From assembly GCF_004297105.1 (NCBI RefSeq), contig NZ_SCVE01000012.1, positions 186,001 to 250,000 of the forward strand: 64,000 nucleotides of DNA, given 5' to 3'. Position 1 is the first letter of the stretch, and each line of letters starts with the position of its first letter. Under the pieces are notes generated by a model that saw only the letters and a list, made by a program, of their open reading frames with translations, was not told where the DNA came from and searched no databases. A program made the translations under genes and the position numbers. Below are positions 1 to 39,669 of the stretch, in pieces. The DNA is from Herbiconiux sp. (GTDB taxonomy: Bacteria; Actinomycetota; Actinomycetes; Actinomycetales; Microbacteriaceae).

Positions 1-399
1 ACACTGTCCTACGCGCTCAACAAGGCGGCCCTGCGTGAGGCCGAGCGGCGCGGCGCCGACGACGTGATCTTCGTCAGCACCGACGACATCGTGCTGGAGG
101 GACCGACGTCGAACGTGCTGGTTCGGCACGGCGACCGCTTCCGCACCCCGCGCACCGACCTCGGCATCCTCGCCGGCACCACCCAGGCGGCCGTCTTCGA
201 CACGCTCGACGCGATGGGCTTCGACACCGCCGAGGCGGTCATCTCCTCCGCCGAGCTCGCCTCGGCCGACGCGATCTGGCTGCTCTCGAGCGGCCGGCTG
301 ATCGCGCCCGTGCGCGAGCTCGACGGCGCCCCACTCGCGGTCGACGCCGAGTTCACCGCGACCCTCCTCCAGAAGACCTTCGGCCTCGGCCCGGCCTGA
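1..399 (+). CDS. Aminotransferase class IV, PabC-like, 5' end missing
   Basis: This is the C-terminal 132 residues of a PLP-dependent fold-type IV enzyme, cut by the window edge. The segment LSYALNKAALREAE, then ADDVIFVS and LEGPTSNVLV, is the pattern of 4-amino-4-deoxychorismate lyase (last step of p-aminobenzoate synthesis) and of branched-chain aminotransferases; EGPTSNV is the conserved cofactor/substrate loop. The catalytic lysine lies upstream of the window, so lyase and aminotransferase cannot be separated. The gene converges on mtnB, with a hairpin array between them. An aminotransferase could in principle close methionine salvage, but the opposite orientation argues against a shared operon. 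Confidence 0.75.
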   Translation, partial: TLSYALNKAALREAERRGADDVIFVSTDDIVLEGPTSNVLVRHGDRFRTPRTDLGILAGTTQAAVFDTLDAMGFDTAEAVISSAELASADAIWLLSSGRLIAPVRELDGAPLAVDAEFTATLLQKTFGLGPA

Positions 400-442: not shown

Positions 443-959
443 GGTTGCCACAACATGTGGCAACCCTCATCCCGAGGCGACACTTTCTGACAAATGGATG
501 ACGCACGTCACCGCGGGCGCAAGTCCGCTTGCCACAAGTTGTGGCGTGGGCACGCGAGTTGCCACAACATGTGGCAACCGCCGACACGCGCATGCCCCCG
601 CCAGCCCCGCCGATCCACTTGCCACAAGCTGTGGCCTGCGCACGCACGTTGCCACAACATGTGGCAACCCTCATCCCGAGGCGACACTTCCTGACAACCG
701 GATGACGCACGTCACGGCAGGCGCAAGCCCGCTTGCCACAAGTTGCGGCGTGGGCACGCGGGTTGCCACAACATGTGGCAACCGCCGACACGCGCATGCC
801 CCGCCAGCCCCGCCGATCCACTTGCCACACGATGCTGCATACGCACCCGGGTTGCCACAACATGTGGCAACCGCCGACACGCGGATGCCCCCGCGGGCGC
901 AAGTCCGCTTGCCACAAGTTGTGGCGTGCGCACGCGGGTTGCCACATGTTGTGGCAACC
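443..959. repeat. Array of paired palindromic hairpins with a 204-bp tandem duplication
   Basis: The space between convergent genes (400-971) is filled by two palindrome types. Type 1 has arms GGTTGCCACA and TGTGGCAACC around ACA, near 443, 557, 648, 761 and 850, and inverted (spacer TGT) at 937-959. Type 2 has core GCCACAAGTTGTGGC, near 528, 618, 732 and 908, with a decayed copy at 821. A type 2 hairpin is always followed about 30 bp later by a type 1. Positions 466-669 recur almost base for base from 670 on, a 204-bp tandem duplication, and a third partial unit follows. The same core occurs at 38.7 kb. Spacing is too regular for chance and too irregular for CRISPR. REP-like elements or bidirectional terminators are the likeliest readings. 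Confidence 0.9.
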
Positions 960-971
960 CGCGTGGGCACC

Positions 972-1682
972 TCAGCGGGTGGCGAGCGCGATCTGCAGCA
1001 GTGCCTCGGTGAGCTCGAGGTGCCAGCGCGCCTGACGCAGGTCGGCGCCCCAGGCGTAGATGCCGTGGTCGGCCACGATGAGAGCGGGCACCTCGCCGAC
1101 CGAATCGGTGCGGCCCGTGTAGACGCGCTCGAAGGCATCGCCGAGCACGCGCATGTCCTGATGGTTCTGCACCACGGGGATGACCACCCGCTCGCCGTGG
1201 GCACTGTGACCGATGCCCTTCAGCATCTCGAGGTCGTGCAGCACCACGCCCTCGGGCCAGGCGCGTCCCGCGCGCACGGCGGCCAGGGCGTGCACGTGGA
1301 TGCCGGCACCCGCACCGGTCACCCGGGCGATGCGGGCGTGCAGGCCCGCCTCGGCCGAGGGCTTGCGGGCCAGCCCGAGCGACTCGGTGAGGCCGTCGTC
1401 GGCACCCGCGCCCGAACCGGTCCAGTCGCCGTTGCCATCGACCAGCACGATGTCCGAAGCCGTGAGCTCGCCCTTGTCGAGCCCGGATGCCGTCACCGCC
1501 AGCCGCAGCGGGTCGCGGTCGAGCGTGATCGACAGGTTTCCGGCAGTGCCGGGCATCCAGCCGAGCGCCGCGAAACGCGCCGCCTCCGCCGCCAGCGCCG
1601 CCCCCGCATCCGTGACCGTCGAAGCGGTCAGGCCCTCGGGCGAGAAGACGTTGGGCGCCCAGGCGCCCGTGCCGGTGCTCAC
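972..1682 (-). CDS. mtnB: Methylthioribulose-1-phosphate dehydratase
   Basis: A 236-residue class II aldolase-fold enzyme of the methylthioadenosine salvage pathway. It removes water from 5-methylthioribulose 1-phosphate to give the diketo phosphate used by MtnC. Seen: GTAGNLS near residue 46, the zinc-ligand pair in GIHVHAL (His129, His131), and a third histidine in VADHGIYAWG. The GTG start overlaps the mtnC stop as GTGA, which fixes the start and implies translational coupling. It is the last gene of mtnA-K-C-B and runs into the hairpin array. Family assignment rests on these motifs plus the operon. Confidence 0.9.
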   Translation of the reverse strand: MSTGTGAWAPNVFSPEGLTASTVTDAGAALAAEAARFAALGWMPGTAGNLSITLDRDPLRLAVTASGLDKGELTASDIVLVDGNGDWTGSGAGADDGLTESLGLARKPSAEAGLHARIARVTGAGAGIHVHALAAVRAGRAWPEGVVLHDLEMLKGIGHSAHGERVVIPVVQNHQDMRVLGDAFERVYTGRTDSVGEVPALIVADHGIYAWGADLRQARWHLELTEALLQIALATR

Positions 1683-20179: not shown

Positions 20180-22189
20180 TCACCGCTCGAGCGCGACCTC
20201 CAGGATGCTCGGCCCCGCCGGCGGCGACGCCAGCGCCGAATCGAGATCGCCACGCGTGGAGATGGCGCGATGCTCCCAGCCGTAGGCGGCCGCCAGGGCG
20301 GCGATGCCGACATCCTGAGGCGTGAACATGACGCGATCGAAGGCCTCCCGCACGGCCGTGGAGGCCACCTCGAGCCCGTCGAAGATCGTGCCGCCCCCGT
20401 CGTTTCCGACCACGAGCTGGATACGCGGCCGCCGCTCGCCCGGCGTGAGCAGCAGCGCACCCACATCGTGCAGCAGCGCGAGATCGCCGAGGAGCACGCG
20501 CGTCGTGCCGGCCCGCTGCTGAGCGAGCGACCCCGCGCCGGTGCCGGACTGGCTCGCTGCGGCGATGCCGAGCGCGGTGGAGATCGTGCCGTCGATCCCC
20601 GCCAGCCCGCGGTTCGCGTGCACGGTGACCTTCTTGCCCCCGGCCGCGACATCGAGCTCCCGGATCAGCCGCGAGGCCCCCAGCACGAGCCGATCGTGCG
20701 GCCAGGTGGCCTGCCAGGTGGCGAGCGCGAGCGCACGACGGCTCACCGGTGCCCGTAATGCGGCGAGTTCGGCGCGAGCGAACTCACGTGCCCCGGCGGG
20801 GTCGTCGGCACCACCCCGCACGTCGAGCGGAGCAGCCACCTCGTCGTCGGCCGCCTCCCGGTCGAGCAGCTCGCGGCCGGCGAACACCCACTGACCGGTC
20901 CAGGCGCGGGACGCCCGGTCGGCGCGGTCTTCGGCGTCGGCCGTGACCTCGTCGACGACCACGGCGAGCGCGCTGGGCACGAACGGCTCCCCGCGCCCGC
21001 GCACCACCACCGTCTCGAGGTCGTCGCGCCCCACGAGGGCCGCGACCTGCCGGCTGAGCGTCGGATGCCCGAACACCACCACGCGCTCGATGCGCTCCGC
21101 GAAGTCGGGGTGGTCGAGCAGCCGCCGATAGGCGGGCACGAGGTTCGGCCCGAACCGCGCGCCGCTCGAAACCTCGGCGATGAGCGGCCAGCCCGCGTGC
21201 AGGGCGAAGGCGTTGGCGCCGTCGCCTGCGTCGGCACCCGCCACCACGAGCGTGCGAGGGCCGGGCGCCAGGTGCAGGGCGCGCCTCGGAGAAGCGGATG
21301 CCGCTGCCGCAGCTCCTGGCGCCGACACCTCGGAGTCGCCGGAGCCGGATGCGGCGGTCGGGGAGGGGGAATCGGATGCCGCAGCGGTCTCGGCAGCAGA
21401 ATCGGGTACCGCAGCGGTCTCGGCAGCAGAATCGGAGTGAGACCTGGGCTCCGAGGACAAGGAAGCCGAAGCCGAAGCACCGGCTGACGACACCGGATCC
21501 GCAACCCCCGGCGTGGTCCCGGATGCGGGCGCCGATCCGGATGCCGCGCCCGACAGCGCTTCGGTCTCGTCGACGAAGGCGCCCGACAGCGCTTCGGCCT
21601 CGTCGATGAACGCGCCCGACAGCGGTTCGGGCTCCTCGATGAGCGCCCCCGACAGCGGCTCCACGAACTGGAGGTTGAGATGCACGGGCCCCGCGGCGGC
21701 GGCCGAGGTCGCCGTGCGGTACGCGGTGTCGGCGAGAGCGCGCGCATCCGGGATCGCGTCGGCGGTGGGCGCCGGCACATCGACCTCGCCTCGAGCGAAA
21801 CGGCCGAAGACACCGGGCTGCCACGTGGTCTGGTTCGAGCCCGTTCCGCGCAACCGCGCCGGCCGGTCGGCGGTGAGGAGCAGCATCGGCACACCCGAGT
21901 GCGAGGCCTCCATCACGGCCGGCAGCAGGTTGGCGACCGCCGTGCCCGAGGTGGTGACCACGAGTGCCGGCCGCCCCGTCTCCCGCGCGATGCCGAGCGC
22001 GGTGAACGCGGCCACCCGCTCATCGATGCGCACGTGCAGCGCGAGTGCACCGCGCGCCTCGAGCTCCGCGAGCGCCAGCGCCAGGGCCTGCGAGCGGGAG
22101 CCCGGCGACACGACGGCATGCTGAACGCCCAGCTCGACGAAGGCGTCGAGCAGCCGGGTGGCGAACGTCGCCGCAGCGCTCGGGGTCAC
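20180..22189 (-). CDS. menD: 2-succinyl-5-enolpyruvyl-6-hydroxy-3-cyclohexene-1-carboxylate synthase (MenD) with a repeat insertion
   Basis: A ThDP-dependent enzyme of menaquinone synthesis joining isochorismate and 2-oxoglutarate. Seen: VVSPGSRSQAL (28-38), IDERVAAF with the ThDP-activating Glu57, TTSGTAVANLLPAV, a middle domain resuming at LAPGPRTLVV, and the cofactor region ending GIDGTISTALGIA. At 669 residues it is about 100 longer than usual. The excess, residues about 178-303, is a low-complexity insert with tandem repeats between the N-terminal and middle domains. GTG start overlaps the upstream gene (GTGA). Confidence 0.92.
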   Translation of the reverse strand: MTPSAAATFATRLLDAFVELGVQHAVVSPGSRSQALALALAELEARGALALHVRIDERVAAFTALGIARETGRPALVVTTSGTAVANLLPAVMEASHSGVPMLLLTADRPARLRGTGSNQTTWQPGVFGRFARGEVDVPAPTADAIPDARALADTAYRTATSAAAAGPVHLNLQFVEPLSGALIEEPEPLSGAFIDEAEALSGAFVDETEALSGAASGSAPASGTTPGVADPVSSAGASASASLSSEPRSHSDSAAETAAVPDSAAETAAASDSPSPTAASGSGDSEVSAPGAAAAASASPRRALHLAPGPRTLVVAGADAGDGANAFALHAGWPLIAEVSSGARFGPNLVPAYRRLLDHPDFAERIERVVVFGHPTLSRQVAALVGRDDLETVVVRGRGEPFVPSALAVVVDEVTADAEDRADRASRAWTGQWVFAGRELLDREAADDEVAAPLDVRGGADDPAGAREFARAELAALRAPVSRRALALATWQATWPHDRLVLGASRLIRELDVAAGGKKVTVHANRGLAGIDGTISTALGIAAASQSGTGAGSLAQQRAGTTRVLLGDLALLHDVGALLLTPGERRPRIQLVVGNDGGGTIFDGLEVASTAVREAFDRVMFTPQDVGIAALAAAYGWEHRAISTRGDLDSALASPPAGPSILEVALER
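21281..21661 (-). repeat. Tandem repeats encoding a disordered insert in MenD
   Basis: At 21530-21661 four 33-nt units encode 11-residue repeats (EPLSGALIEEP, EPLSGAFIDEA, EALSGAFVDET, EALSGAASGSA). At 21374-21433 two nearly identical 30-nt units encode DSAAETAAVP and DSAAETAAAS. The rest is Ala/Ser/Pro rich. Unit lengths are multiples of three, so copy-number change keeps the frame. Confidence 0.9.
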
Positions 22190-37928: not shown

Positions 37929-38592
37929 CCGGATCAAGCACGACGCACCCGTGCTCGTCATCGGGCTCGGCCGCTTCGGCGCCGCCACCGCCGGCGAGCT
38001 CGACCGCCTGGGCCGCGAGGTGCTCGCGATCGACGAAGACGAGCGGCTCGTGCAGAAGTGGTCGGAGCGCGTCACGCACACGGTGCAGGCGGATGCCAAG
38101 AACGTCGAAGCTCTGCGGCAGATCGGGGCGCAGGAGTTCCAGGTCGCCGTGGTGGCCGTCGGCTCGTCGATCGAGGCCTCCGTGCTGATCACCGCGAACC
38201 TCGTCGACCTGAAGGTGCCGCAGATCTGGGCGAAGGCCATCTCGCGCTCGCACGGCAAGATCCTGGAGCGCATCGGGGCGAACCACGTGATCTATCCCGA
38301 GGCCGAGGCCGGCGAGCGCGTCGCCCACCTGGTGTCGGGCCGGATGCTCGACTTCATCGAGTTCGACGACGACTTCGCGCTCGTGAAGATGTACCCGCCG
38401 AAGCCGATCCGGGGTCTCAACCTCACCGAGTCGGGCGTGCGGTCGAAGTACCACGTGACGGTCGTGGGCGTGAAGAGCCCGGGCAAGCCGTTCACCTATG
38501 CCACGGAGTCGACCGTGGTCTCGAACCATGACCTCATCATCGTCTCGGGCAAGAGCTCGGACATCGAGACGTTCGCCGCGCTCGGCAACTGA
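37921..38592 (+). CDS. ktrA: Potassium uptake regulatory subunit, TrkA/KtrA family
   Basis: A 223-residue cytoplasmic gating protein. RCK_N Rossmann domain with VLVIGLGRFGAATAGEL (nucleotide loop) and the acidic end of beta2 (AIDEDERL), then an RCK_C domain (about 140-215). The TTG start at 37921 lies inside the end of ktrB with AGAGG upstream, so the two are coupled. It is followed by palindromic repeats and convergent proC. Confidence 0.93.
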   Translation: MVDRIKHDAPVLVIGLGRFGAATAGELDRLGREVLAIDEDERLVQKWSERVTHTVQADAKNVEALRQIGAQEFQVAVVAVGSSIEASVLITANLVDLKVPQIWAKAISRSHGKILERIGANHVIYPEAEAGERVAHLVSGRMLDFIEFDDDFALVKMYPPKPIRGLNLTESGVRSKYHVTVVGVKSPGKPFTYATESTVVSNHDLIIVSGKSSDIETFAALGN

Positions 38593-38671: not shown

Positions 38672-38798
38672 TTGCCACAAGGTGTGGCAACCGGATGCGA
38701 CTTGCCACAACTTGTGGCAAGTCGCGAGCGTGGTTCGCAGCCGAGTTGACAGTAGTTGTCGCCTGGAGGGGCGACTTGCCACAAGTTGTGGCAAGTCG
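38672..38798. repeat. Three palindromes of the 0.4-kb family between ktrA and proC
   Basis: TTGCCACA/TGTGGCAA around AGG at 38672-38690; 14-bp arms GCGACTTGCCACAA/TTGTGGCAAGTCGC around C at 38697-38725; 13-bp arms around G at 38772-38798. The core is the same as in the 443-959 array, and again the genes on both sides converge. Confidence 0.9.
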
Positions 38799-38805
38799 AG
38801 AGTGC

Positions 38806-39669
38806 CTAGCCCGCGGCGAGTTCCTTGGCGCGGGCCAGCGCCGCGTCGGTGGCCTTCGTGAAGAGGGCCGGGAGGTCGGCATCCTGCAGCACGGCGATCG
38901 CGCGCTCGGTGGTGCCCTTGGGGCTGGTCACCTGGATGCGTAGGTCGGTGGGCGTCTTGCCCGAGGCCACCAGGAGCTCCGCCGCGCCGGCGAAGGTGCC
39001 GTTCACGAGGATCGCCGCCTGCTCGTCGGTGAACCCCTTCTCCACAGCGGCAGCGGTCATCGCTTCTATCAACAGAAACACGTACGCGGGGCCCGACCCG
39101 GAGATCGTGCTGAGAGCATCGAGCTGTGATTCCGGAACCTCGACCACCGTCCCCACCGTCTCGAACAGCGCACGCACGAGCGCCAGCTCGGGGTCGGTCG
39201 AGCGCGTTCCGGGCGAGATCCCCGTCACGGCCTTGCCCACCACCGCAGGGGTGTTCGGCATCGAGCGGATGACGGCGATGCCCTCCGGCAGGTGCTCCTC
39301 GAAGGTGGCCACGGTCACGCCGGCGGCGACGCTCACCACCACGGTCCCGGGCTCGAGCGCGTCGGCGACCTCGTCGAGCAGATCGGGCACCATCGCCGGC
39401 TTCACCGCCACGAGAACCACGGATGCCCCGGCCACCGCGCGACGGTTCGCATCGGGGTCGTCGTCGGTGGCGAAGGCGGTGACGGCGGGCTCATCGTCGA
39501 ACTCCGCAGCCTTCGCGGCCGAGCGGTTCGTCACCCGGATGCCGCCGGTCACGTGCACGTGCGGGGCCAGCAGCCCGGAGAGGATGGCGCGGCCCATCGA
39601 ACCGGCGCCGAGAACGGCGATCGAGGGGAGTTCAGTGGTCTGTGATTCGTCGGACTCAGCGCTGCTCAT
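38806..39669 (-). CDS. proC: Pyrroline-5-carboxylate reductase
   Basis: A 287-residue NAD(P)H enzyme, last step of proline synthesis. Dinucleotide loop IAVLGAGSMGRAILSGLL (17-34), AVKPAMVPDLLDEV, and the conserved C-terminal DALSTISGSGPAYVFLLIEAM with the substrate loop. Length fits. ATG 39669 has TAGGAT at -12 to -7 (leaderless); that box is half of a palindrome shared with the divergent efflux gene. Confidence 0.94.
   Translation of the reverse strand: MSSAESDESQTTELPSIAVLGAGSMGRAILSGLLAPHVHVTGGIRVTNRSAAKAAEFDDEPAVTAFATDDDPDANRRAVAGASVVLVAVKPAMVPDLLDEVADALEPGTVVVSVAAGVTVATFEEHLPEGIAVIRSMPNTPAVVGKAVTGISPGTRSTDPELALVRALFETVGTVVEVPESQLDALSTISGSGPAYVFLLIEAMTAAAVEKGFTDEQAAILVNGTFAGAAELLVASGKTPTDLRIQVTSPKGTTERAIAVLQDADLPALFTKATDAALARAKELAAG

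Follow-up and report, generated by a model that had tools for sequence, protein, structure and literature searches.

The 64,000-nucleotide stretch of Herbiconiux sp. DNA analysed here (the window) opens with the 3′ part of an aminodeoxychorismate-lyase-like (pabC-like) gene (1–399, plus strand). This gene starts outside the window and was read whole from L084:4113-5000; its best NCBIfam matches fell just below cut-off, whereas the Pfam class IV aminotransferase family scored above cut-off. It converges, as had been described from the sequence alone, on mtnB, which encodes methylthioribulose-1-phosphate dehydratase (972–1682, minus strand; TIGR03328 above cut-off), and a palindrome array sits between the two. 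Six type-1 sites (P palindromes), each a 19-base palindromic copy of the word TTGCCACA-N3-TGTGGCAA, lie at 445–463 (central triplet ACA), 559–577, 649–667, 763–781, 852–870 and 939–957, and five type-2 sites (partners) at 529–547, 619–637, 733–751, 822–840 (badly decayed) and 909–927. A type-1 site occurred in none of 100 shuffles of the window. All eleven palindromes counted in the sequence-only reading are therefore present, but that count missed two decayed partners that start 30 bp to the right of their palindromes, at 475–493 (partner of the 445 palindrome) and, read from the sequence, at 679–697, the palindrome at 649 having a partner on each side. The claim that a type-2 site precedes each type-1 site by about 30 bp holds for five of the six, at exactly 30 bp, but not for the first, which has no left partner. 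The last type-1 site is inverted, as had been claimed (central triplet TGT rather than ACA), and Tandem Repeats Finder recovered the reported 204-bp tandem duplication at 444–872 (period 204, 2.1 copies, 92% matches), with 155 nt of the block 95% identical between copies. Two other tandem repeats in the window, at 21369–21436 and 21545–21657, have periods of 30 and 33, both multiples of three.

A second window locus carries P palindromes at 38672–38690 (centre AGG), 38702–38720 and 38776–38794. The first two, exactly 30 bp apart, form an intact doublet; the third lies 74 bp from the palindrome at 38702 and has a decayed partner 30 bp to its left (38746–38764). The left neighbour is a TrkA-domain gene (37951–38592, plus strand; L085:4352-4993) and the right neighbour is proC (38806–39669, minus strand; L085:5207-6070). 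Across the draft genome (20 contigs, 98.4% complete), TTGCCACA-N3-TGTGGCAA occurs at 152 exact sites in 49 clusters, and the pattern read backwards has no match there. The central triplets are AGT/ACT at 78 sites, fall into two other groups of 36 and 37, and differ at one more. A partner outer arm (at least six of seven letters) was found at exactly 30 bp, on either side, for 128 of the 152 sites; at other offsets between 20 and 70 the highest count was 5. Type-2 sites are decayed copies of the type-1 word, set at a fixed distance of 30 bp. In some doublets, such as 38672/38702, both palindromes are intact, and palindromes with partners on both sides, like that at 649, also occur in the congeners G004 and G009. 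The word recurs locally in 37 clusters, and the distribution of the sites shows that the repeat has spread between loci. We aligned one element from each of 51 of 54 clusters (alignment A1; 46 from the 49 clusters of this genome and all 5 from G005), L091, L092 and L095 having no partner above threshold. A viral or plasmid source was rejected, since the 19-mer had no match in viral_contigs and the window array matched no plasmid. A CRISPR array was rejected as well, because the spacers are themselves repeated within the array.

The dominant spacing of palindromes within an array tends to follow the turn of the DNA helix. Among 36 of the 37 clusters with neighbouring sites (some of them consisting of two sites; L057, with distances of 154 and 30, was omitted), the dominant spacings were 49, 72, 72, 74 (three clusters), 82–84 (15), 93–94 (seven), 102–104 (four), 108, 113, 114 and 123 bp. 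Two of these, 49 and 108, are outliers. When periods of 4 to 30 bp were scanned, the set peaked at 10.3 bp with R = 0.80, a value reached by none of 5,000 smooth resamplings at each of three bandwidths. Without the 82–85 class, the remaining 21 clusters gave R = 0.73. Counting each distinct length once gave R = 0.70 (0 of 5,000), in a test in which neighbouring integers clump. The nulls were jittered values for the pooled set described below and resampled or drawn integers for the others, array growth lying outside all of them. Fifteen hand-compiled arrays from G009 (10), G004 (4) and G005 (1) gave R = 0.93 at 10.4 bp, although nine of them are at 93–94 bp and may not be independent; a 134-bp pair of G009 (C57) was omitted, and C64 contributed one of its two spacings. 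Their phase was 0.1 bp and that of the Herbiconiux genome under study −0.3 bp. Both here and in three congeners, then, the dominant repeat length approximates a whole number of helical turns. This helical register, as expected of palindromic sites arrayed for a dimeric protein, is more weakly apparent when all distinct spacings are pooled (R = 0.58, 48 values). The window array itself has spacings of 114, 90, 114, 89 and 87 bp, only the two of 114 (two of five) being in register, and the pair distance of 30 bp corresponds to 2.9 turns, not 3. Both the strong and the weak R values could be accommodated if arrays start out in register and drift later. Cross-locus spacer matches numbered 51, all judged by eye to lie on the partner module; spacers of different loci share only this module, and the arrays therefore grew in place.

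We next consider how far the family extends. The exact word is found in 1 of 98 relatives (the congener G005, with six sites) and is absent from the other 97. Since exact copies are missing from most congeners, any function is lineage-specific. A scan of named genomes for the 19-mer returned 35 stretches, two on contigs of Herbiconiux sp. nzgw89 and nearly all of the remainder being isolated matches in one archaeon or in unrelated bacteria. A covariance model of 51 elements gave, at E ≤ 0.1 and with at most 150 candidates scored per genome, 154 matches in the genome under study, 146 in G009, 90 in G004, 34 in G005 and 17 in G010, numbers that do not equal element numbers, as a palindrome may match on both strands. 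Six other congeners had one to three weak matches and five had none; the weak matches (E 0.016–0.07, in G002, G006, G008, G011, G013 and G015) were checked by eye and excluded from the members. Exact sites of the related word TTGGCACA-N3-TGTGTCAA number 32 in G004 and 65 in G009, with none in G005 or G010, and in G010 we found examples of TTGACACA..TGTGGCAA-like sites 30 bp apart. With these related elements in congeners and 152 sites at home, the family is neither restricted to two loci in the genome nor devoid of conservation in relatives, an outcome that had been named in advance as the one that would count against it.

A word unrelated to that of the genome under study, GGACAAAGTCCGTC, has 39 matches in G006 and 24 in G014 and none in the other 14 genomes, with one match of the reversed control, in G005. 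It forms 15 inverted doublets in G006 and 8 in G014, all 23 with the same offset and palindrome centres 31 bp apart; 17 other matches are single. In a noisy de novo search for enriched 9-mers, run on 200-kb samples taken from four congeners, one family of G006 alone stood out. Among 199 family genomes (the one under study included), four matched the covariance model at E ≤ 0.001 under stricter filters and with at most 25 candidates scored per genome; the inverted repeats of the three others end in CGAGTTGCC or CGACTTGCC and, in G139, come with tandem half units of 30 bp. A longer inverted repeat of a second kind (measuring about 83 bp where this was determined, with arms like GGTTC..AAACGCAA) lies in convergent gaps of G006 and G014 (L173:17579-17723 and L181:1372-1475), and similar sequence is found past mtnB in G004 and G009 (L135, L140). 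In another genus of the family, L210 (G187:C1:1153369-1153845) carries a similar inverted repeat three times with a 204-bp period, which it probably shares with the window array by chance.

Whether extragenic palindromes are selfish DNA, serve as the ends of RNAs or are sites for proteins has long been debated, and we weighed each of these for the repeat described here. As a REPIN-like selfish element, the doublet would be a miniature mobile unit, non-autonomous and useless to its host, that some enzyme copies in the form of a single-stranded hairpin, with gene-end gaps being where it does least harm. The 152 dispersed copies fit this account, as does the conservation of the partner arms as inverted outer ends. 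The places of the elements are also partly unshared between species: the pabC–mtnB array is present in only 1 of 14 genomes with mtnB (checked within 620 bp after the gene; some congeners have a different inverted repeat there), and five G004 stretches occupy a place that is not shared. Several places are nevertheless common to different species, namely L051/L074/L188 and, on one side, L083/L192 (by BLAST coordinates), and one further G004 element sits between orthologues of the neighbours of L087 and L092. The mover expected of such an element, suggested beforehand as a TnpA-REP, found no support: the Y1 transposase (PF01797) has no match in the draft genome (98.4% complete) and is absent from 14 of 15 congeners, whereas 5 of 14 control genomes match. 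It was rejected as the mover, since among the 16 genus genomes only G001 has one (L207; G001:C11:24558-24878). A single-stranded hairpin also offers no reason for spacing by helical turns. Taken together, we regard a selfish origin of this kind as possible but doubtful.

Known systems bear on the same question. The elements agree with the broad definition of a REP (a palindrome of 20–40 bp, high in copy and extragenic), being 19–27 bp long with 142 of the 152 sites in called intergenic gaps, and with doublets and a bias towards convergent genes the earlier suggestion of a dispersed palindromic repeat of REP/BIME type is supported. Tagged REPs of the GTAG and CGTC superfamilies are, in the passages that describe them, small high-copy extragenic palindromes that lie for the most part between genes running convergently or in the same direction, frequently as pairs, with some families confined to one species (PMC3733652). 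The elements described here resemble them in copy number, extragenic place, pairing and species-specific families, but those REPs are tagged and vary in dimer distance, whereas here the tag is missing as a rule, the distance is fixed at 30 bp and arrays are in helical register. Within 10 nt of 162 oriented elements, on either strand, CGTC occurred 11 times on the left and 10 on the right and GTAG once and four times, so that the tag is not the rule; the usual neighbours are CGAC/CGAG and GTCG/CCCG. The same passages name no Actinobacteria (0 occurrences) and include CGTC REP families that lack a known transposase (Di Nocera et al. 2013, PMC3733652), so that a missing Y1 is not enough on its own to rule out kinship with REPs. 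Tandem clusters that include flanking sequence are described for some REPINs, whose unit is the inverted doublet (Bertels and Rainey 2011, PMC3116915); the partner arm at exactly 30 bp recalls that unit, but the same paper gives REPINs a Y1 transposase (RAYT) companion and main doublet distances of 71 and 110 bp. The part of the RepRanger table consulted (PMC12306157) names three Actinomycetota, none of them Microbacteriaceae, and the matches listed in our literature search held no description of these elements, which is weak evidence of absence. We read the elements as an untagged REP-like variant, placed outside the REP, BIME and REPIN systems in that the tag is not the rule and no Y1 was found in the genome. 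In the BIMEs of E. coli, which are bound by IHF or gyrase, palindromes of related types alternate with set linkers in intergenic arrays. The window array shares this alternation, but its sequence is unrelated.

Alternatively, the palindromes could act in transcripts, as bidirectional terminators or 3′-end stabilisers to which tandem copies add strength. Their placement speaks for this. Counting gaps of at least 50 bp between genes called by a codon-usage script rather than taken from annotation, a site was present in 29 of 55 convergent gaps and in 18 of 194 tandem or divergent ones (Fisher p 2.6e-11); the stretches were chosen for holding sites, which inflates occupancy, but the comparison stays inside those stretches. 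The unselected window agrees on a small sample (2 of 12 convergent gaps, 0 of 23 others). By orientation, 93 of the 152 sites lie in convergent gaps, 44 in tandem and 5 in divergent ones, with 10 outside called gaps, and sites lie a median of 46 bp from a stop codon. Convergent clusters made up 15 of 24 in G004 and 2 of 5 in the G006 sample. Single palindromes can form stems of −19 kcal/mol, and bases just outside the core pair more often than expected (35 of 54 against 25.9 when each cluster contributes a single site; 85 of 158 against 74.1 over all sites), with a covariation score above all 500 shuffles. This flank pairing is hairpin-like and stands against a pure duplex reading, but copied subfamilies could give the same pattern.

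Within the core, by contrast with its flanks, letters rather than pairing are kept. In the 18 P-type sites that carry between one and three changes, arm pairs were broken in 20 cases and compensated in 1, RNAalifold reported no covarying pair in the core, and one stem pair is G-T in every exact copy of G004 and G009 by the pattern used. Mismatch within arrays rises from 1.1–1.4% in the arms (biased low, as units were chosen with at most one arm mismatch) to 14–17% in the partner, 18% in the central triplet, 27% in the 11-bp linker and 42% in the far spacer, in line with the earlier observation that arms are kept while linkers drift. An intrinsic bidirectional terminator is a hairpin-forming sequence between convergent genes. 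The window array differs from one in having no U-tract, many palindromes per gap and letters kept rather than pairing. The multi-step bidirectional terminator proposed earlier is accordingly unsupported in its canonical intrinsic form at the window array, the only one scanned, where no stem followed by a U-tract was found in positions 300–1100. A T-run was also absent from the ten commonest 4-mers after P. A known RNA family was rejected, as Rfam gave no match above its gathering score in the window. A role in RNA, which moreover gives no reason for helical spacing, therefore seems unlikely. Least probable is an ordinary and useless tandem duplication of a once-dispersed sequence, with a register that arose by accident in a small sample or from a history common to the arrays. 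Many clusters do show evident local duplication, and many arrays share a spacing near 83 or near 94 bp, but apart from the partner different loci have no spacer sequence in common, the arms stay conserved beside spacers that diverge to the extent given above, and the register survives both removal of the 82–85 class and the counting of each distinct length once.

We infer that recognition of the duplex by a dimeric protein is favoured by three features: pairs exactly 30 bp apart, a register close to whole turns in four genomes, and a core kept as letters. Our preferred reading, to which we give close to an even chance, is that the window array belongs to a REP/BIME-like repeat that is dispersed in the genome, specific to its lineage and locally arrayed, with a unit of two palindromes exactly 30 bp apart that is likely to be read as double-stranded DNA by a putative dimeric protein. 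The idea of selection for protein binding raised in the sequence-only reading thus gains from the helical register and the uncompensated core, but nothing ties the array to gyrase or a nucleoid protein, as it had also suggested. The observations behind this reading include a palindrome conserved nearly to the letter beside a decaying partner, and arrays that grew in place. If dimers occupy the palindromes, they would be placed on almost the same face of the helix, and this would account for arrays arising, or being retained, in register. An array covered by protein may also act as a roadblock or boundary where transcription units converge, a step for which we see less support.

A broader version of the preferred reading extends to the whole of the Microbacteriaceae, in which bipartite palindromes about three turns apart would be read as duplex by a fast-changing dimeric protein, with one word per lineage and copies added in whole turns, giving phased platforms at converging gene ends. 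We put this forward tentatively, as a conjecture that may well prove wrong. In the debate over extragenic palindromes, the register of the arrays speaks for duplex recognition. Within a single genus the architecture recurs with different words in different species, and the Y1 transposase is almost absent from the genomes searched. Should a protein co-vary with the word, these species would form a natural series of matched protein–site pairs.

A possible partner protein, which we treat as a lead only, is encoded between two elements in the genome under study by a DUF559/REase-like gene (L051:5725-6531, minus strand; DUF559 above cut-off, REase_MTES_1575 below). Its relative in G005 (L074:5217-5849, minus strand; 60% protein identity over 204 residues) is likewise placed between two elements, and the 525 called proteins from the retrieved loci and the window include no other. 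The same place in G004 holds, beside one element, an open reading frame that has no Pfam match (L188:3018-4043, plus strand). A TPP riboswitch lies at L051:6974-7081 (plus strand), just past the divergent element of that locus.
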